Positions 24,725-62,214 of a DNA stretch of 64,000 nucleotides are shown piece after piece. Below the pieces are notes generated by a model. It ran no database searches. It was not told the origin of the DNA and worked only from the letters and a program-made list of their open reading frames with translations. How positions within the stretch are numbered: position 1 is the first letter of the stretch; each line of letters opens with the position of its first letter. Origin of the DNA: a virus. The DNA lies in IMG/VR virus record IMGVR_UViG_3300042691_026427, positions 85,249 to 149,248 of that record; one strand, given 5' to 3'. The translations under genes and the position numbers were made by a program.

Positions 24725-25781
24725 TTACATAAGGTGTAGGATCTACTTTTCCAGTCAATCCGTTTGCTTCAATTATGAGAGGCGCTAGAGTTTTCATCTT
24801 AACACAATGAGCTTCTACCATATTGTGGTCTTTTAGATCTTTGATTGTTTTCTTGCAACCGTTGCATATTTGAAACATAGGGCAAGTCCAACAGCTCTGT
24901 TTTAAACTTTGTAATTCAGGTTGAAACTGTAAGGGAAATACTTTCTCCCCTTTCATTTCTTCTTCAAAGTTTATATTGTAGATCCGGTCATCACCAAATG
25001 CTCCGCAACTGTAATAATCGCCTGTAGGCTGCAAGGTTCTTATACCACTATCGCACGATCTGTTCTGAGGACAACTTGTGGCATATCCGTTCAAACGATT
25101 TACCATTTGTTTTGTGTTAAATTCCCATTCAGTTAACCCTTGTTGCCAAATTTTTACATATATTTCGTATATGTCAGCTAACATGTATGGTCTACCTTCT
25201 TGTCCCATAGTAATATTTTTAAATTTAACTGGAGGGCCACTGCTAAATGCATAATTGAGTTTACATTCAACATTCATTTCTTTTGCCAGCTCTACATTCT
25301 TAATTGCAAGATGTTGATTCTCTTCTGTAATTACTGTGATAAAATCAGGACGATATCCTATGCGCTCTAGCATCATATTGCTGACTGCCCAAAAGTCCTC
25401 TTCGCTGAATTCTGTTAGGTCTCCCTTAAGACGGCCGCCGCCATATTGGAAACTAGTTGTGACTCCTAGGCGAGGATGCTTAAACAGAGATTCCCACTTG
25501 GTAGGATTTTTATAAAATGGCCACAGATTACTTGTAAAACTGATAGTAGCTGTCGAGCCTATATTGTCTAAGTGTTCAATAAGTTTCCAATAATAATCTG
25601 GTGGCATCATTAAGGGGTCGCCGCCATTGACAATTATAGTTCGAGTTTCTGGAAATCTTTCTAAGAAACGAAAGATATATTCATGATCAAGCTCTGCAGA
25701 CTTATCTTCAGTAATGTTCGTGCTAGAACAAAATGTGCATTTAAAATTGCACCGTTCAGTTGGCTTGATTATTAGATCCAT
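24711..25781 (-). CDS. Radical SAM/SPASM peptide-modifying-type enzyme (356 aa)
   Basis: CNFKCTFC (Cys11, 15, 18) is followed by TIIVNGGDPLMM, the SAM-binding GGxP-like motif, with the usual partial barrel after it (ISFTSNLWPF, GVTTSFQYGG). The C-terminal SPASM region has CPQNRSCDSG, YYSCGAFGDD and CWTCPMFQICNGC followed by HC, enough for two auxiliary [4Fe-4S] clusters. The RTLQPTGDYYSCGAF strand is the usual SPASM entry. It overlaps the B12-type enzyme upstream by 26 nt. Confidence 0.88.
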   Translation of the reverse strand: MDLIIKPTERCNFKCTFCSSTNITEDKSAELDHEYIFRFLERFPETRTIIVNGGDPLMMPPDYYWKLIEHLDNIGSTATISFTSNLWPFYKNPTKWESLFKHPRLGVTTSFQYGGGRLKGDLTEFSEEDFWAVSNMMLERIGYRPDFITVITEENQHLAIKNVELAKEMNVECKLNYAFSSGPPVKFKNITMGQEGRPYMLADIYEIYVKIWQQGLTEWEFNTKQMVNRLNGYATSCPQNRSCDSGIRTLQPTGDYYSCGAFGDDRIYNINFEEEMKGEKVFPLQFQPELQSLKQSCWTCPMFQICNGCKKTIKDLKDHNMVEAHCVKMKTLAPLIIEANGLTGKVDPTPYVNEHE

Positions 25782-27426
25782 ATTCTACTATTTCTTCAAA
25801 GAGGTTATTATAGATTAACTGCTCGTTTGAATTTATAAATTCTTCGATTATTTCTAATCTATTTTTTCCATTTATTTTTGTTATATCCTTAGCAGCAGTT
25901 TCGTAATTTAGTGTATCTTTTACATCGTTGTATATCTCTTTAAAAGAACTAATGTTATTCATAGCGGTCCAACAATATTCAAGAAATGTCCGAACATCTG
26001 GTAAAACATCTTTTAAGTTTTTCCAAAGTTTCCTGACTAATGTATCTGATGCAAAAGACATAATAAACATTTGAATGTTATCTTCTAATGTATAAGAGTT
26101 ACAACTGGATATAGTTTTAAAATAATTTTTACGATTTTTATAAAGGCCGCTTGAAATAAAAGAAATTCCTTCTTCTACGGTTTGTGTGAAAACTTCTACT
26201 AATTTTATTTTATTTAAAGCACAATAAAGATCATCAGTAATTTCACTATCTGGTAGAGCCATATAATCATAAAAACAATATTGAATATTATTGTTTTCTA
26301 AACTATTGTATATCACTAACAGTTCATCATAAAAATCATCCAATGTTGAACCCGGCATTGCTCTTATAAATTCCATAAAAGGAGATGATGCTCCAAAATT
26401 TTTTTCGCAGTATTCAATTAATTGTATTTTATCTATCTTGTTTAAATCAACACGTTTAGAAATCTTCATTGCATTATCACTTAAACTCTGAATACCTATA
26501 TTAGGAACTATCGATTTTCTCCCGTTTGACGTATCTGTTCCTGTTATTTTGAAAATCTCATCAATTATCTTAATTTTTTTATCTAGATTTGTTGTTTTAA
26601 ACAATGAAGAGTTTATAAATGACATTCCCAAGTCATATGCATATTTTAAGAAAAACAAGTCTCGTTCTAAGAATAATCCAAAGTTTGCATCAACATTATA
26701 AATTTGCTTATAACCTAATTTGTGCAGCACATCTATTTCTCTAATTACAATATCTTCAGGTTTCTTTAACACCTTAGTTCCAATGCCGCCACCCCATTCA
26801 CAATATGTACAATGAAATGGGCACCCTCTTGTAGTTTCTATTAATACGTGTGGAAATATTCCCTCAATATCGGCGTAGTCTTTTATCTTTTTTAAGTAAT
26901 CGAAATTTTCTTCATATGCACAAACATTGGGAAATTGCCATTCTCGGCATTTAGTACTTCTTAATTCAAAACTAATATCTTCTATGTTAGGTATTCCGTT
27001 ATTTTCAAAATAGGAATCTATAAAATCTTGCATGAATAGTTCGCCTGGTTTTGTTACCTGACAGAAATAATCATACATAGTTTTCTTTTTGAAGATATCT
27101 ATATCTTTCTGCCCTATTTGCGGACCGCCCAACACATTAACTATATTAGGGTTAATATTCTTTGCCAATCTTGCAACTTCATCTATGATATCAGTATTCC
27201 AAATGTAAGAACTGTATAAAATTATGTCAGCAGTATTAACTTCTTCCCATATTTCTTTACAACTTTGATATCTGTTATATTTGAATGGTGGCTCTAACCA
27301 TTCAACTAAATCTTTGTATTTTCCAAAATTATCATAGTATGATTTCATCCATATCCAAGTCACTGGACTGAATAGCTCAGTGTCAATGCTAGGAGGATTT
27401 ACAAAAGCTATTTTAATTTTTTTCAT
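25756..27426 (-). CDS. B12-binding-type radical SAM enzyme (556 aa)
   Basis: The first 150 residues have a Rossmann-like pattern (KIKIAFVNPPS, ADIILYSSYIWN, VNVLGGPQIGQ) as in the cobalamin-binding domain of class B radical SAM enzymes, without a clear DxHxxG motif. The cluster site is TTRGCPFHCTYCEWGGG (Cys202, 206, 209), and the following YNVDANFGL and FMEFIRAMPGSTLDDF segments are typical of this group, which includes methylases and ring-forming enzymes. The last 150 residues are helical. Its start overlaps the upstream stop as TAATG. It could add methyl groups to unactivated carbon, but the reaction is not shown. Confidence 0.85.
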   Translation of the reverse strand: MKKIKIAFVNPPSIDTELFSPVTWIWMKSYYDNFGKYKDLVEWLEPPFKYNRYQSCKEIWEEVNTADIILYSSYIWNTDIIDEVARLAKNINPNIVNVLGGPQIGQKDIDIFKKKTMYDYFCQVTKPGELFMQDFIDSYFENNGIPNIEDISFELRSTKCREWQFPNVCAYEENFDYLKKIKDYADIEGIFPHVLIETTRGCPFHCTYCEWGGGIGTKVLKKPEDIVIREIDVLHKLGYKQIYNVDANFGLFLERDLFFLKYAYDLGMSFINSSLFKTTNLDKKIKIIDEIFKITGTDTSNGRKSIVPNIGIQSLSDNAMKISKRVDLNKIDKIQLIEYCEKNFGASSPFMEFIRAMPGSTLDDFYDELLVIYNSLENNNIQYCFYDYMALPDSEITDDLYCALNKIKLVEVFTQTVEEGISFISSGLYKNRKNYFKTISSCNSYTLEDNIQMFIMSFASDTLVRKLWKNLKDVLPDVRTFLEYCWTAMNNISSFKEIYNDVKDTLNYETAAKDITKINGKNRLEIIEEFINSNEQLIYNNLFEEIVEYGSNNQAN

Positions 27427-31646: not shown

Positions 31647-32366
31647 TTATTCTACTCCAAATACTTCTTCCGGATTTAGCGGAATTTCTTTGTTTATCAT
31701 TTGATACAATAAGGGAACAAACATATTTAAATCATTATTATAGTAGTCAAATAACGATTTTCCCTTAAACATGTGTGCTTCAAATTGTTGAGTAAAATAC
31801 GTTAAACTTAAAGGTCTGTCTACTGAAAAGTATATTTCTAAAAAGCCTGGCAAACTAAAAAGATTAACAACATTTAATCCAACATAATGGGGATCATCAA
31901 TATTTTCAAAGTTCTCTTTAACATTAAGTTCTGCGTTTAAGTCTTCAAAACTTTTAATTAGAAACAACATAGTAGAATCAATAAAATGAATCCAACGACC
32001 TACTAAACTTTCATTCTTAGTAATAAATTCTTCACACTCTTCTTTGGATAGCAAGCTCTTTCCATAATTTGCATCAGGATAAATGGCTTGTAAGATAATT
32101 TGAGCCGCAGCAACATTCAGATATGCAATGTTCGAAACACTGTTCCCCCCAAAATAAGCTTCAATTAATTCAAACTTTTGTTCTTTGGTTACTGACTCAT
32201 TTAGAACCAAGTCAGAAGGAATATCTAAATTTGAGAGGTATACTAACAGTACTTTTCCTTGAATTTTTGACTGTTGGTAATCTACCATAAAGAATGTATT
32301 TTTATCTTTAAAGTACTCTTTGATTTGATCAATTGGTATTGGTGCAATCGTCTGAACGTAATTCAT
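31647..32366 (-). CDS. Unknown protein between the two enzymes of pair 2 (239 aa)
   Basis: No recognised domain. N-terminal half has hydrophobic strands (GKVLLVYLSNLDI), the middle is helical (EFITKNESLVGRWIHFIDST), and the C-terminus is aromatic and acidic. It overlaps the 383-residue radical SAM gene by 38 nt and abuts the 367-residue enzyme gene. It could be the substrate or a leader-binding partner of pair 2, but it has no Cys/His-rich tail like the 220-residue protein of module 1. Confidence 0.6.
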   Translation of the reverse strand: MNYVQTIAPIPIDQIKEYFKDKNTFFMVDYQQSKIQGKVLLVYLSNLDIPSDLVLNESVTKEQKFELIEAYFGGNSVSNIAYLNVAAAQIILQAIYPDANYGKSLLSKEECEEFITKNESLVGRWIHFIDSTMLFLIKSFEDLNAELNVKENFENIDDPHYVGLNVVNLFSLPGFLEIYFSVDRPLSLTYFTQQFEAHMFKGKSLFDYYNNDLNMFVPLLYQMINKEIPLNPEEVFGVE

Positions 32367-33480
32367 TATAATTTTTCCTAAGTTCTGTTAAATTTTGTTT
32401 TGCTTTTGTTTCGTATAGTTGTATAAAGGTAGATTTGTTATTTCTAATCCTCGATATAACTTTTTTCGACAACGGGCATTCATCGCTGTCATCAAACAGA
32501 CTTGCATCACAATTTCCGCCGCAAATATCATAATGTTCACATGTGAAGCACATTTCATGTTGTGTCATTTCGGCTAATTTATTTATAATGACATCTACGG
32601 CCTTGGTTTGAAATGTATCCCAGTCGTTTACCATTTCATCAACTGTAGATACAGGTTCAACATAAGTCTTGTCGGGGCAAAATCCAACAGTACCATTTGG
32701 ATTTAACGTAAATGTTCTTTTATCGCAACAATTACATTTACAATCAAACATTTGACCGCTCAATAGAGTTTTGGTGAATAGATCTACTTGTGGTAAGCAC
32801 CAAGTAGTTTCATTATGTTGGTAATATTCAACCAAAGTATCTAACCAATTTGCCCATTTGATATTATTTGGTTTTAAACTTCTTGTCTGTTCATCAAACG
32901 TAGTGAGCAATTCAAAGTCTATAGAATCAACTCCATCAAATAGTTTTACAATTTCGAGAGGATCATAATTTAAAAGATATTTCTGTGCTGTGATAGATAT
33001 ATGCACTTTTATACCTGCATCTATTAATTTTTTTAAATTACCAAAGAATAAATCTTCTTGCTCATGTTTTTTATTAATTGCAATAGATCCAAATCTTATA
33101 TCAGCGTCCCAACTTACTCCAATAGTTGATCTATATTCATCCTTAATAAATTGAATAAATGTATCGTCTACCTTATAGAGTAAATTGGTTTGGGGTACAA
33201 TGTCCATCGGCATTGAGCCAAAAGTATTTCTTATTATTTCATTTACTTTAACTAAATGTTCGTAAGGTGATAAAAATGTCTCGCCACCATGTATGTAAAA
33301 AGTAGCCTTGGCAGGATCAACATTTTTTTTAATTGAGGTTAGAAATTTTTCAATGTAACCTAAATCAGTAAGCATATAGGGATCTTTGTCTCCTAATGTA
33401 AAACAGTGAGTACAATTTAAATTGCAACCCTGTATCACTCTTAGATAGATTACATTGAATTCGTTTGAAAAAACGTTCAT
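32329..33480 (-). CDS. Radical SAM/SPASM enzyme, first enzyme of pair 2 (383 aa)
   Basis: CNLNCTHCFT (Cys19, 23, 26) and FYIHGGETFLSP (SAM site) are followed by the barrel strand IGVSWDADIRFGS and a SPASM domain: CKCNCCDKR, GTVGFCPDK, MCFTCEHYDICGGNCDAS and ECPLSK. It is clearly a paralogue of the 351-residue enzyme of module 1 (shared CNLNCxHCFT, HGGExFL, SWDxDIRF and TLNxxGTxxxCP). SPASM enzymes of this layout act on ribosomally made peptides. It overlaps the methyltransferase gene by 4 nt. Confidence 0.9.
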   Translation of the reverse strand: MNVFSNEFNVIYLRVIQGCNLNCTHCFTLGDKDPYMLTDLGYIEKFLTSIKKNVDPAKATFYIHGGETFLSPYEHLVKVNEIIRNTFGSMPMDIVPQTNLLYKVDDTFIQFIKDEYRSTIGVSWDADIRFGSIAINKKHEQEDLFFGNLKKLIDAGIKVHISITAQKYLLNYDPLEIVKLFDGVDSIDFELLTTFDEQTRSLKPNNIKWANWLDTLVEYYQHNETTWCLPQVDLFTKTLLSGQMFDCKCNCCDKRTFTLNPNGTVGFCPDKTYVEPVSTVDEMVNDWDTFQTKAVDVIINKLAEMTQHEMCFTCEHYDICGGNCDASLFDDSDECPLSKKVISRIRNNKSTFIQLYETKAKQNLTELRKNYNELRSDDCTNTN

Positions 33481-37390: not shown

Positions 37391-38392
37391 TTATTTAATA
37401 TCCAAAAAACAACCCATGTTAAAATCTCTTGCTATAGGAAAATACCCTTTTCCCATGCAGTGGGTTAAATTTTTACAATTGACACATTTGTCTAGTATCA
37501 CGTTATTTATATCATCTATACTGCTGTAAGTTTTAATAAAACCTTCGTAATTTGGAGTCAGCACTCTAAATCGAGGATTATCTATAAAAACGTATTCATC
37601 AAAAGGAATAATAGGAGTTAAAAAAATATCACCCGGTGACCCTAAAAAAGTAAATGCAGGTTTTCGCAACAGTGTTCTGTCGTTGTATTGTTTTGTTGCA
37701 TTCTCTGTACCTAAATAATGATCAGTTATGTCATGTATGGTTCTAATGCTTTCTTGCAACATGTTTGTTTTTTTCTCCAAACTTATATCTGGATTATACA
37801 AAAATGTAAAATTTAGTTCAATTATCTCATCATCGGATAAAAAATCTAACATTTGGTTTAGTTTAACTTTTTCCTTATCGGACAATGTAAATCCGGTATT
37901 GATTGCCAAGTTGATTATAACATCATCGCCGTATGTTTCTTTAATCTTTGCAATTCTAGATTTTATTGTTATTTGATAGTTTATGTCAAACAGTTTTGCT
38001 ATCAATAGATTGACCTGCAATTCAATTTTGGCCAATGGATTATTGTTTTTTACAATTTTAAAAAATTCTGGATCAAACCCTGTTTCTAACGTAGATGCCA
38101 CACCCACATACTCAAACAATGAAACTGTTTCTGCAAATTCTGCATTTTCAAACAGTTTGTAATTGTCCTTGTTATCAAATATATCAGTTGGCAATAGATA
38201 ACAAGTTTCCAATTCATAACCGTTTTTCAACAAGTCTTTGGCCAACGATAACGAAGATGTAAAATCGTTGTAATTATTTTTAGTTCTGTTGTAAAAACAT
38301 CCCCGGCAATCCATGGAACAGTCATTCAATACCAGCATTCTAAATTCTGCCAGTTTGTATGGGTCACCATATCTTTCGTAGGAATTATACAT
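37391..38392 (-). CDS. Radical SAM protein, second enzyme of pair 1 (333 aa)
   Basis: The cluster motif is LNDCSMDCRGCFYN (Cys25, 29, 32). The SAM-site glycines are replaced by TCYLLPTDIFDN, as in its paralogue of 367 residues (PTDFL). The C-terminal region has CVNCKNLTHCMGKG and then GCFLD, a short auxiliary-cluster (twitch-like) region. It overlaps the 351-residue enzyme by 8 nt and is followed directly by the candidate substrate gene. Confidence 0.85.
   Translation of the reverse strand: MYNSYERYGDPYKLAEFRMLVLNDCSMDCRGCFYNRTKNNYNDFTSSLSLAKDLLKNGYELETCYLLPTDIFDNKDNYKLFENAEFAETVSLFEYVGVASTLETGFDPEFFKIVKNNNPLAKIELQVNLLIAKLFDINYQITIKSRIAKIKETYGDDVIINLAINTGFTLSDKEKVKLNQMLDFLSDDEIIELNFTFLYNPDISLEKKTNMLQESIRTIHDITDHYLGTENATKQYNDRTLLRKPAFTFLGSPGDIFLTPIIPFDEYVFIDNPRFRVLTPNYEGFIKTYSSIDDINNVILDKCVNCKNLTHCMGKGYFPIARDFNMGCFLDIK
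37392..37399 (-). promoter_or_regulatory. Possible late-promoter octamer ATTAAATA before the Cys/His-tail gene
   Basis: RNTAAATA-type motif at the very end of the upstream radical SAM gene, 15 nt before the ATG of the 220-residue protein. It would let the candidate substrate be made at higher level than the enzymes. It is the weakest match of the set. Confidence 0.3.
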
Positions 38393-39440
38393 GATGTACA
38401 GCCTTGATAGGAATTGTAATTCTCTTTGGCTTTGCCAATGCTTTCATCAAACTTTTCGGTGCTCCGCATATATCGTCCTGCCATTCTAGTTGATGACAAT
38501 CGCTGTTGCAGTATTCAAATACTTCGCAAGTATAACATCTAGGATCCCTAGCTCTTTCGCAAGAAATGTTTTCTAATCTCTGGGGACTTGTTAACAAAGA
38601 GGCAATGTCATCATCAATGTGGCCAAATTGATGTTCTGGGGCGCTATTGGGGCAACCAGATATAGTTCCATCAGCATTTAGGGTAAACAGCTTTTCTTCA
38701 CAGTCCCTGCAAAATGTAGCGCCATTGGTAAGTCCAATTTCAAATTTAGCATAGATGCTTTCCATAAATTCGTTACTGAACCATGACCTTGCGTCATGCT
38801 CTACTATCTGATGGTGCATCTTTAAAAACCACTGATCTTGTTCTAAGTTTGTGGGAAATATATGCAAATTTTCTCTTGCGCTGCCGTTCATAGTGAGACG
38901 CTCAAGTGCTAGATCAGTAACGCCTAAATCTCTTATCCATTCCAGCAGATCAATAGGTTCCATGGCAACGGTGCCTCGGGTAACACTGACAAACAGTTTG
39001 ACCTCAACTCCTAGATCAATTAGGGTCTGCAGATTCTTTCGCCATAAGTCGTATTGTTTAGGACTGGCAAATCTTATGTCTGGATCCCAGCTAGTTCCTA
39101 TGCGGCCTCCCAATGGCCCCATGATAAAATCAATCTTGTCCTGTGTTAACTTATAAGTTAAGTTGGTAGTGACACCCCAGCTGCGACTAGCCCATAATTC
39201 CTGGCATTGATCATACACATACTGCATCGATGATATATCTGCTAAAAAGGGTTCGCCGCCGTGAAACTCTAAATGTACATGGGGCGCACTAGCTGTTTCA
39301 ACATGTAGACGTTTAAGCCAATCGGCAACCTTTACATGATCCCAATATATCTTTGCGCCTTTGCTGCCGCTAGTAAAACAGTGCAGGCAATTGAGATTAC
39401 AGGTTTCTGTAGTCTTGAGGTAAATCATTAATTCTTTCAT
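38385..39440 (-). CDS. Radical SAM/SPASM enzyme, first enzyme of pair 1 (351 aa)
   Basis: Cluster motif CNLNCLHCFTSG (Cys14, 18, 21), SAM site LEFHGGEPFLAD, barrel strand GTSWDPDIRFAS, then a SPASM domain with FCRDCEEK, GTISGCPNS, RCYTCEVFEYCNSDC and ICGAP. All features of a peptide-modifying SPASM enzyme are present. It is a paralogue of the 383-residue enzyme of pair 2. Base composition is richer in G and C than its paralogue, suggesting a different history. It starts 9 nt after the cupin-type oxygenase. Confidence 0.9.
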   Translation of the reverse strand: MKELMIYLKTTETCNLNCLHCFTSGSKGAKIYWDHVKVADWLKRLHVETASAPHVHLEFHGGEPFLADISSMQYVYDQCQELWASRSWGVTTNLTYKLTQDKIDFIMGPLGGRIGTSWDPDIRFASPKQYDLWRKNLQTLIDLGVEVKLFVSVTRGTVAMEPIDLLEWIRDLGVTDLALERLTMNGSARENLHIFPTNLEQDQWFLKMHHQIVEHDARSWFSNEFMESIYAKFEIGLTNGATFCRDCEEKLFTLNADGTISGCPNSAPEHQFGHIDDDIASLLTSPQRLENISCERARDPRCYTCEVFEYCNSDCHQLEWQDDICGAPKSLMKALAKPKRITIPIKAVHHV

Positions 39441-58555: not shown

Positions 58556-58643
58556 CTTCCGAGCAGGCTGTAGTATTTTCGTATGCAGAAAAACCGTTCG
58601 CGCAGCCTCGCCGTCCACCCCCACTATGTTCGAACATGCGTGT

Positions 58644-58672
58644 ATTATAACATGGTTTTACCAAATTGTCAA
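58644..58672 (-). promoter_or_regulatory. Leftward consensus promoter TTGACA-17-TATAAT facing the DnaA boxes
   Basis: -35 at 58667-58672, -10 at 58644-58649, 17-nt spacing, perfect hexamers. Its transcript would run through the DnaA boxes and stop at 58401-58436, about 235 nt, with no credible gene in it. It could be a primer or origin-activating RNA. Confidence 0.75.
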
Positions 58673-58711
58673 CCGGTAACCCTATAACCCTGCGGGCTTC
58701 TGGGTCTTTGG

Positions 58712-58740
58712 TTGCATGGGAGACGTTTTGCTGTTATAAT
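58712..58740 (+). promoter_or_regulatory. sigma70 promoter TTGCAT-17-TATAAT
   Basis: -35 at 58712-58717, -10 at 58735-58740. Drives the 82- and 46-residue genes. Confidence 0.75.
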
Positions 58741-58768
58741 ACACACATACACTAAAAAGGAGCTCAAA

Positions 58769-59017
58769 ATGTTTAATACACTTGCAAAAGCAAAATTAGT
58801 TCATAATAAACAAAAAGAATTGTATAAACTAGTTGTCGCATTTAATGTACATACTAAACAAAAAGATAATGGAGATATTGTACACATATTCCCTACGCAA
58901 AAAAAATGTGCTTATGTTAGCGGAGATATTAATTATGAGGAACTGCAAAAAGAAGTATCTCGTTTAACAGAAACTGCTAAAAAGCAATTGCGTACAGATA
59001 ATATTGAATTTGTTTAA
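58769..59017 (+). CDS. Small early-type protein (82 aa)
   Basis: The start MFNTLAKAKLVHNKQKELYK has an AAGGAGC site 7 nt upstream; an earlier Met lies before the -10 box and cannot be used from this promoter. The protein is basic and helical, with HTKQKDNGDIVHIF and QKEVSRLTETAKKQL. Codons are strongly A/T-ending, unlike the C/G-ending codons of neighbours such as 60297-60587. Function unknown. Confidence 0.65.
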   Translation: MFNTLAKAKLVHNKQKELYKLVVAFNVHTKQKDNGDIVHIFPTQKKCAYVSGDINYEELQKEVSRLTETAKKQLRTDNIEFV

Positions 59018-59032
59018 TTAAAAGGAGCTATT

Positions 59033-59173
59033 ATGCAAGATAATGTTAAAGAGAAACTCACTAGTTTAATGTTGCAAATGCAAGACATTATTATGGAGGA
59101 TTACGAGGATAATGTCGACATACAGGATGCATTTAATGCATTAGCAAGTGCATTTGATTATTATATAGATTAA
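59033..59173 (+). CDS. Small acidic protein (46 aa)
   Basis: MQDNVKEKLTSLMLQMQDII then an acidic, aromatic end (ALASAFDYYID). It has an AAAGGAGC ribosome-binding site and is 15 nt downstream of the 82-residue gene, with the same A/T-rich codon style. It is probably one helical hairpin. Function unknown. Confidence 0.6.
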   Translation: MQDNVKEKLTSLMLQMQDIIMEDYEDNVDIQDAFNALASAFDYYID

Positions 59174-59185
59174 TATTATATAATC

Positions 59186-59212
59186 AAAGGCCCTATGCAC
59201 TGTAGGGTCTTT
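59186..59212 (+). terminator. Terminator-like hairpin directly before the next promoter
   Basis: AAAGGCCCTA / TAGGGTCTTT, ten pairs with one G-U, ending 2 nt before the -35 box at 59215. Confidence 0.6.
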
Positions 59213-59214
59213 GG

Positions 59215-59243
59215 TTGACGGATTGGTAAAACCTTGTTATAAT
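59215..59243 (+). promoter_or_regulatory. sigma70 promoter TTGACG-17-TATAAT, leaderless gene
   Basis: -10 ends at 59243 and the ATG is at 59250, so a start 7 nt downstream of the -10 box would begin the message at the start codon itself. Confidence 0.75.
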
Positions 59244-59249
59244 ATACAC

Positions 59250-59588
59250 ATGACACAGACACTAGCACCCCGTAAGAAGCGAGCAGACCGCAACCACATC
59301 ATATACGAGCTGGTTGTCAACGGTCTCAACTACATTGGCGTCACTGCCAAGACAGAGTCTACAGTGAACAAGAGCGTGCTGTCGCGTGCGGCCAAGCACT
59401 TCTACCGTGCTAAGACTGAAGACAAGAACTGGTTGCTCTGTGCTGAACTTCGTAAGTTGAACAGCAAGGATGAGATCCTTGTATATGTACACGAAGTGAT
59501 CCGCGGCAAGGCGGCTGCTCACAAGCGTGAAGTTGAGATCCGTCGTATGGTCAAGCCTGTATTGAACACTGACACAAGAGGAGATTGA
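59250..59588 (+). CDS. Possible GIY-YIG-type nuclease fold protein (112 aa)
   Basis: IIYELVVNGLNYIGVTAKTE resembles the GIY-YIG core strand pair (Y-x-I/L ... YIGxT), followed by VLSRAAKHFYRAKTED, where the Arg/His region falls, and a C-terminal REVEIRRMVKPVLNTDTRG with a Glu and the usual PxxN ending. It is small and stands alone, like many phage GIY-YIG proteins. The start at 59250 is the first after the -10 box; it lacks a Shine-Dalgarno and is probably leaderless. The nuclease assignment is tentative. Confidence 0.55.
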   Translation: MTQTLAPRKKRADRNHIIYELVVNGLNYIGVTAKTESTVNKSVLSRAAKHFYRAKTEDKNWLLCAELRKLNSKDEILVYVHEVIRGKAAAHKREVEIRRMVKPVLNTDTRGD

Positions 59589-61706: not shown

Positions 61707-61926
61707 TATTAATGAAGTACTACAGTGGGCAGGTACAGTGTGCATTTTGACAATGTACGTGCTCATGAACTTCTTTCGGGAGTTGGGTCTAGATCCGTTG
61801 TTTGGACTCCTGGGCGGGTTGTGCTATGCCACCTGGGCATATCGTGTGGCAAATAAGCCACAATTGCTAGTTAACGTTGTGGCAATATCCGTATGTGTTG
61901 TAGGGTTATTCAAAGCACTTGGTTGA
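61699..61926 (+). CDS. Small membrane protein (75 aa)
   Basis: Two or three membrane helices: WAGTVCILTMYVLMNFF, LDPLFGLLGGLCYATWAYRV and LLVNVVAISVCVVGLFKAL. The start at 61699 has GAAGG 5 nt upstream; an earlier GTG in frame is less likely. It overlaps the 125-residue gene by 8 nt. It may act on the host membrane early in infection, but its role is unknown. Confidence 0.6.
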   Translation: MRNINEVLQWAGTVCILTMYVLMNFFRELGLDPLFGLLGGLCYATWAYRVANKPQLLVNVVAISVCVVGLFKALG

Positions 61927-61951
61927 CAAAGTGGTAAAACCTTGCTATAAT
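61923..61951 (+). promoter_or_regulatory. Consensus sigma70 promoter TTGACA-17-TATAAT for the 222-nt RNA
   Basis: -35 at 61923-61928 and -10 at 61946-61951. A start 7 nt after the -10 box is 61958, exactly the first base of the RNA closing helix. Confidence 0.85.
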
Positions 61952-61957
61952 TAGCAC

Positions 61958-62179
61958 ATGGACAGTTAGAAAAGAGTTAAAGGTTACCTAGACCACTAGG
62001 CGACTGGGATGATGACAGTACCGACGGGAGCTGGTCAAGTCCAGGAGCATGAAGCAGGAGCAATCCGGAGTTGCGGTGGACAATCTAGGAGTAATGACCG
62101 TGCAGGCCCTTGACGGAGACGTTCCCCTGGGTAGAGACAGATGCACAATGGTTCCTTTAATTCTTTTCTAACTGTCCAT
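61958..62179 (+). ncRNA. Structured RNA closed by a 26-bp helix (222 nt)
   Basis: The first 26 nt (61958-61983) pair with the last 26 (62154-62179) along their full length, with a single G-U. The inner 170 nt has no coding frame and further helices: CCTAG-acca-CTAGG, GCAA-tccggag-TTGC and CAGG...CCTG. GGA occurs about eight times, several in loops (CAGGAGC twice, TCCGGAG, CTAGGAG, ACGGAGA). It has its own consensus promoter starting at the helix, and ends 6 nt before the next -35 box. Unlike tmRNA, RNase P or 6S by eye. A GGA-rich decoy for a CsrA-like protein is one idea; no family recognised. Confidence 0.75.
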
Positions 62180-62185
62180 AAGGGG

Positions 62186-62214
62186 TTGACAGGTTGGTAA
62201 AACCGTGTTATAAT
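62186..62214 (+). promoter_or_regulatory. Consensus sigma70 promoter TTGACA-17-TATAAT
   Basis: -35 at 62186-62191, -10 at 62209-62214, spacer with the recurring ggttggtaaaacc. Drives the 88/70/183-residue genes. Confidence 0.85.

Follow-up and report, generated by a model that had tools for sequence, protein, structure and literature searches.

Phage transfer RNA (tRNA) arrays hold stable RNAs, for example rnaC (species 1) and rnaD (species 2) of T4, for which we know of no function. The put RNA of phage HK022, a structured RNA of about 65 nucleotides (nt), acts only in cis. ROOL and GOLLD are structured phage and prophage RNAs of unknown function, often found near tRNA islands (PMC12286853), and boxA together with leader-trailer helices makes up the anatomy of ribosomal RNA (rRNA) operons (PMC10250234). 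Here, we describe a structured noncoding RNA gene at positions 61958-62179 (plus strand) of a 64,000-nt stretch of viral DNA, called the window below, which is the 3′ 64 kb of the 149,248-bp virus record IMGVR_UViG_3300042691_026427; the gene is present in a single copy in this phage and is matched by a covariance model of its relatives with 180.8 bits. The gene is genuine, had not been catalogued before and is common to many large uncultured T4-like phages. It represents a new family among the structured phage RNAs of tRNA clusters; its fold is unrelated to those of ROOL, GOLLD, rnaC and rnaD, and its expression setting recalls that of rRNA operons. No description of this RNA was found in the open-access literature.

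Like ROOL and GOLLD, the RNA is phage-encoded and in most copies near tRNA arrays; those RNAs, however, are far bigger and assemble into multimeric cages, whereas the present one is about 170-260 nt long, has an unrelated fold and gives no match to the ROOL and GOLLD models of Rfam. It also resembles rnaC and rnaD, both of them small, stable and encoded in the tRNA cluster of a member of the T4 superfamily, but the end of rnaC is a T-arm-like hairpin, and the P1-P5 architecture described below is found in neither RNA. As an unfiltered covariance model search gave nothing notable over either of them (the best score, 9.5 bits, fell elsewhere in the region), homology to rnaC and rnaD was rejected.

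The two arms of the closing stalk P1 in the window (61958-61983 and 62154-62179, plus strand, 26 nt each) pair at all 26 positions with a single G-U, so that the 222-nt RNA with a 26-bp closing helix, proposed in a preliminary description made from the letters alone, is exact. Among inverted repeats with a loop of about 50-760 nt, this is the longest without mismatch in the window, the runners-up measuring 21 and 20 bp. The minimum free energy of the RNA is −88.2 kcal/mol vs −61.4 ± 4.5 kcal/mol for shuffled sequences (z −5.99), and 0 of 200 shuffles were as good. The RNA also has its own promoter, with the predicted start on the first paired base, as had been described: a sigma-70-type TTGACA-N17-TATAAT (61923-61951, plus strand; hexamers at 61923-61928 and 61946-61951, spacer 17 nt) agrees with the consensus at 12 of 12 positions, carries an extended −10 TG and sets the predicted start at about 61958. 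An intrinsic terminator was searched for 3′ of the RNA and none was found; the next gene's own perfect promoter (62186-62214, plus strand) begins 7 nt past the RNA end. That no coding frame is present was essentially correct. ATG frames of 34 and 40 codons occur by chance, but their full length is not kept in relatives, and a coding gene at 61958-62179 was rejected because the frames are not maintained; core length modulo 3 is free to vary (31, 23 and 22 relatives), and what is conserved in the family is base pairing, not a reading frame.

Relatives were collected from IMG/VR by scanning with the sequences of two neighbouring proteins as well as with the DNA pattern GGTTACCNAN{1,2}CCRNTAGG. 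At least 76 distinct RNA cores were delimited, and counts given per 76 refer to this set; the cores are 156-238 nt long, and most closing helices measure 20-31 bp. A covariance model of 16 class-A sequences (R1) recovers copies of both classes, A and B, at E ≤ 1e-6, and a model of class B alone (R2) recovers the window copy at 6e-6; these E-values are rough, since calibration was short, while bit scores are high, with 181 for the window copy. The reciprocal recovery indicates that classes A and B are one family. A covariance model built from related phages and an Rfam search had been named as checks in the preliminary description; the model recovers the family, and Rfam 15 gave no match to any family at E ≤ 5, only sub-threshold chance matches, in line with the earlier remark that the RNA is unlike transfer-messenger RNA (tmRNA), RNase P and 6S. 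Permuted tmRNA genes called by ARAGORN (tags ANDEQFALAA, ANDNTFALAA) lie on phage contigs carrying the present RNA, at L149:2820-3376, L179:3059-3603 and L183:3439-3794.

Covariation was assessed on a MAFFT alignment of 16 sequences that was not fitted to structure, for which RNAalifold gave a consensus fold of 57 pairs. In this alignment 93.6% of the cells pair, vs 76.5% after shuffling and 35-44% when slid, the covariation score is 0.495 vs 0.170 shuffled, and 0 of 500 shuffles were as good on any measure. Compensatory changes in homologues, which had been set beforehand as the test of the RNA, are strongly present, with double changes at 34 of the 57 pairs vs 20.5 shuffled. When 82 distinct sequences were aligned to the model, an alignment that leans to structure, the score was 0.521 vs 0.139 shuffled, and in a scan of all column pairs of this alignment the 27 best-scoring listed pairs all belong to the proposed structure. 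Pseudoknots were looked for in the same covariation scan and rejected; beyond the nested pairs only weaker signals appeared, which look like class differences.

The common architecture consists of the P1 stalk, UUA, P2a/P2b enclosing P3 and P4, UAAUG after P2, and P5; UUA, A-GAA and UAAUG are the invariant unpaired motifs of the family. In the window copy (all features on the plus strand), P1, 11 of whose 14 inner pairs are doubly changed in relatives, is followed by the invariant single strand UUA (61984-61986) and by the covarying 5′ strand of P2a/P2b, CCUAGA+CCACU (61987-61997), with the 3′ strands of P2b and P2a at 62075-62079 and 62084-62089; among relatives P2 is formed by CCUAGA/UCUAGG, CCUACA/UGUAGG, CCAAG/CUUGG or CCCACA/UGUGGG. 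The P3 hairpin domain (62000-62048) has its distal stem at 62018-62031 with a GACG tetraloop (62023-62026), and the conserved CAUGAA (62048-62053), whose A-GAA is invariant, precedes P4 (62057-62066), a GGA-GCAA-UCC hairpin with a GNRA tetraloop. P4 is the most size-variable part, and a third variant of the RNA (e.g., in L020 and L161) has a larger one. The conserved GUAAUG (62091-62096), nearly invariant as UAAUG in both classes, leads into the P5 domain (62096-62153) and its hairpin with a GACGN loop (62115-62125). At L138:6130-6600 and L218:3140-3580 the core is seemingly nested in a longer transcript with a common extra 3′ stretch (GCGGATAGGGTCAAGTGCGATCCTGTAG...), which has no Rfam match.

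Hairpins with GGA in their loops had been noted in the preliminary description and read as capture of a CsrA/RsmA-type regulator or as masking of anti-Shine-Dalgarno pairing. The observation is true only superficially: the window core does contain eight GGA (6.5 expected) in a hairpin-rich fold, as would suit a CsrA/RsmA sponge, but only one is fully unpaired in the minimum free energy structure. Across the 76 family members GGA is not enriched (4.37 per RNA vs 4.53 shuffled), an RNA has on average only 0.72 unpaired GGA, and 37 of the 76 lack an unpaired one altogether; nor is there a match to Rfam covariance models, those of CsrB, CsrC and RsmZ included. Since GGA stands at shuffle level and is mostly paired, both proposals are left without support. 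A CsrA/RsmA sponge is thus highly improbable, and the same holds for an anti-Shine-Dalgarno mask whose GGAG runs would bind the 16S rRNA 3′ end: the window copy and its near relatives have several GGAG, but these lie in segments that vary, and many relatives lack them, the conserved feature being the paired structure. Instead of GGA, the conserved loops are G(A/C)CG or similar in P3 (69 of 76 relatives), GACGN in P5 (GACG or GAUG in 73 of 76) and GNRA in P4 of most class-A members.

Exactly one copy of the RNA is found in 24 of 31 large phage records, many of them picked for carrying the RNA or its neighbours, and no record has more than one; the carriers include phages of the T4 superfamily as judged by gp23. 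The nearest cultured relatives by capsid are 121Q, PA5oct, Vibrio 2.275.O, Phosso, Melnitz, Mosig, HTVC008M and others; covariance model searches of 11 cultured relatives did not find the RNA, nor did blastn find it in cultured phages. Such absences from model searches are soft, because the class-B copy of record G014 was missed by R1 in a search of the whole record and picked up by R2. Among 84,980 cellular genomes, one search pattern gave no match and a second gave two, neither supported by covariance model. Long terminal inverted repeats and differing genomic positions might recall a retron-type noncoding RNA or another mobile-element RNA with terminal repeats; such an origin is hardly credible, given the single copy per genome and the lack of any open reading frame longer than 202 amino acids within several kb of the window copy, which means that no reverse transcriptase lies beside it.

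Of the 76 copies, 52 lie inside tRNA arrays; the remainder stand alone, mostly with a strong promoter. Three settings are found repeatedly, two of them in arrays. In the first array setting, a promoter, a short boxB-like hairpin, a boxA-like TGTTCTTTAAAAA and the 5′ strand of the stalk precede the RNA, and the 3′ strand is followed by a tRNA, usually 25-31 nt on; TGTTCTTTAAAAA lies 51-59 nt upstream of the RNA in more than 20 copies, and a boxA 51-121 nt upstream in 29 of the 52 array copies. In the second, seen in more than 20 copies, the RNA follows 14-15 nt after a tRNA, mostly tRNA-Glu(UUC), and the stalk reaches the CCA of that tRNA. The third comprises stand-alone copies whose consensus promoter keeps a constant distance, the window copy among them: in 13 distinct copies, this one included, the −10 ends exactly 30 nt before the core GG. 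The stalk sequences vary by setting yet always pair and are thus exchangeable around the core; the same core in differing contexts with differing stalks would seem to behave like a gene. A long helix of the rrn type joining the 5′ and 3′ flanks is present in the family, and array copies with promoter, hairpin, boxA and a long 5′/3′ helix around a structured RNA, followed by tRNAs, resemble an rRNA operon; the enclosed RNA, however, is not rRNA, and the window copy has the stalk but lacks boxA. At its opposite end, the record of the window phage has a cluster of more than 20 tRNA genes (L259:1-3319; G000:C1:1-3319), in which a promoter, a boxB-like hairpin, boxA and a stalk-enclosed tRNA-like RNA (z −4.6; not called by ARAGORN) stand before tRNA-Glu. 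The boxB-boxA slot is thus occupied by a different stalk-enclosed RNA, while the present RNA lies elsewhere with its own promoter, which fits a movable trans-acting gene; from this arrangement we infer that the present RNA was relocated to a stand-alone gene in this phage, the order of these events included.

The simplest reading of all settings would be a stable, trans-acting RNA released via its stalk. We consider it probable, though by no means assured, that the phages encode a trans-acting structured RNA of a new family which is excised by way of its stalk and acts beside the phage tRNAs. Its transcription would start at a strong sigma-70-type promoter or, for the majority of relatives, be that of a tRNA operon, which frequently begins with a boxB-boxA-like leader. 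The long 5′/3′ stalk would join the RNA ends as leader-trailer helices do in rRNA precursors, and host RNase III would probably cut it, freeing a compact, stable RNA predicted to be a junction of P1, P2 (bearing P3 and P4) and P5. The folded core may act in trans, its most plausible target being translation or tRNA biology in the infected cell, either by itself or together with a protein that recognizes the GACG-type loops; the linkage to tRNAs points to translation as the target.

Several observations weigh against this reading. The RNA is patchy: when 12 long T4-like contigs were selected solely by their major capsid protein, only one contained it, and it is to be regarded as accessory for that reason. 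Some array copies stand at operon heads, where a role in cis is also possible. Further, no protein partner was found: a TROVE protein occurs in none of the 31 records and a Ro-like DUF2828/DUF7788 protein in four. The latter counts also make it very unlikely that the RNA is the component of a Ro/Y-RNA-like ribonucleoprotein, an idea prompted by the DUF2828/DUF7788 protein of the window phage, which is RNA-binding according to PHROGs (phrog_850).

The copies at operon heads, many of them just behind a boxB-boxA-like leader, would suit a module of tRNA operons that works in cis on transcription or processing, be it a put-like antiterminator or a processing scaffold, and enables RNA polymerase to traverse long arrays without translation. 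The likeness to HK022 put is that of a structured phage RNA at a transcript start; but the present RNA also exists as an isolated gene, about one third of the copies, the window copy included, standing alone without a tRNA array directly downstream, and others lie in mid-array after tRNA-Glu. In the window the perfect promoter of the next gene, 7 nt past the RNA, speaks against an effect in cis on the genes that follow, and the P3-P5 interior exceeds the complexity that put RNAs are generally known to require. A module of this kind appears unlikely to us.

With regard to the window phage itself, its promoters (61923-61951, 62186-62214 and 58635-59252) have the motif TGGTAAAACC in common in the spacer between −35 and −10, which suggests a candidate site of a shared regulator; one divergent promoter pair in the window makes up an inverted repeat of 37 bp that is interrupted by two mismatches. 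The phage record also encodes a full-length DnaK/Hsp70, the DUF2828/DUF7788 RNA-binding-type protein and a thiamine-pyrophosphate enzyme (L260:8078-9970, L260:13871-15268 and L259:8702-10483), and radical SAM-type proteins are encoded in the window at 25756-27426 (a call by eye), 32329-33480 and 38385-39440, two of which have PHROG matches.

That none of the cultured phages searched carries the RNA points to something missing from both Rfam and the collections of isolates. Its unusually strong covariation, tight motifs and single-copy distribution give it a well-defined structure that lends itself to clear tests by mutation. From the leader, which resembles that of rRNA operons, it would seem that the phages may have copied a host route to abundant stable RNA. 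It is possible, if rather doubtful, that an rRNA-like RNA, made from an operon which copies the boxB-boxA and leader-trailer design of the host and delivered together with tRNAs, remodels host translation or tRNA metabolism as a ribonucleoprotein or ribozyme; if true, this would be a new functional class of phage RNA.
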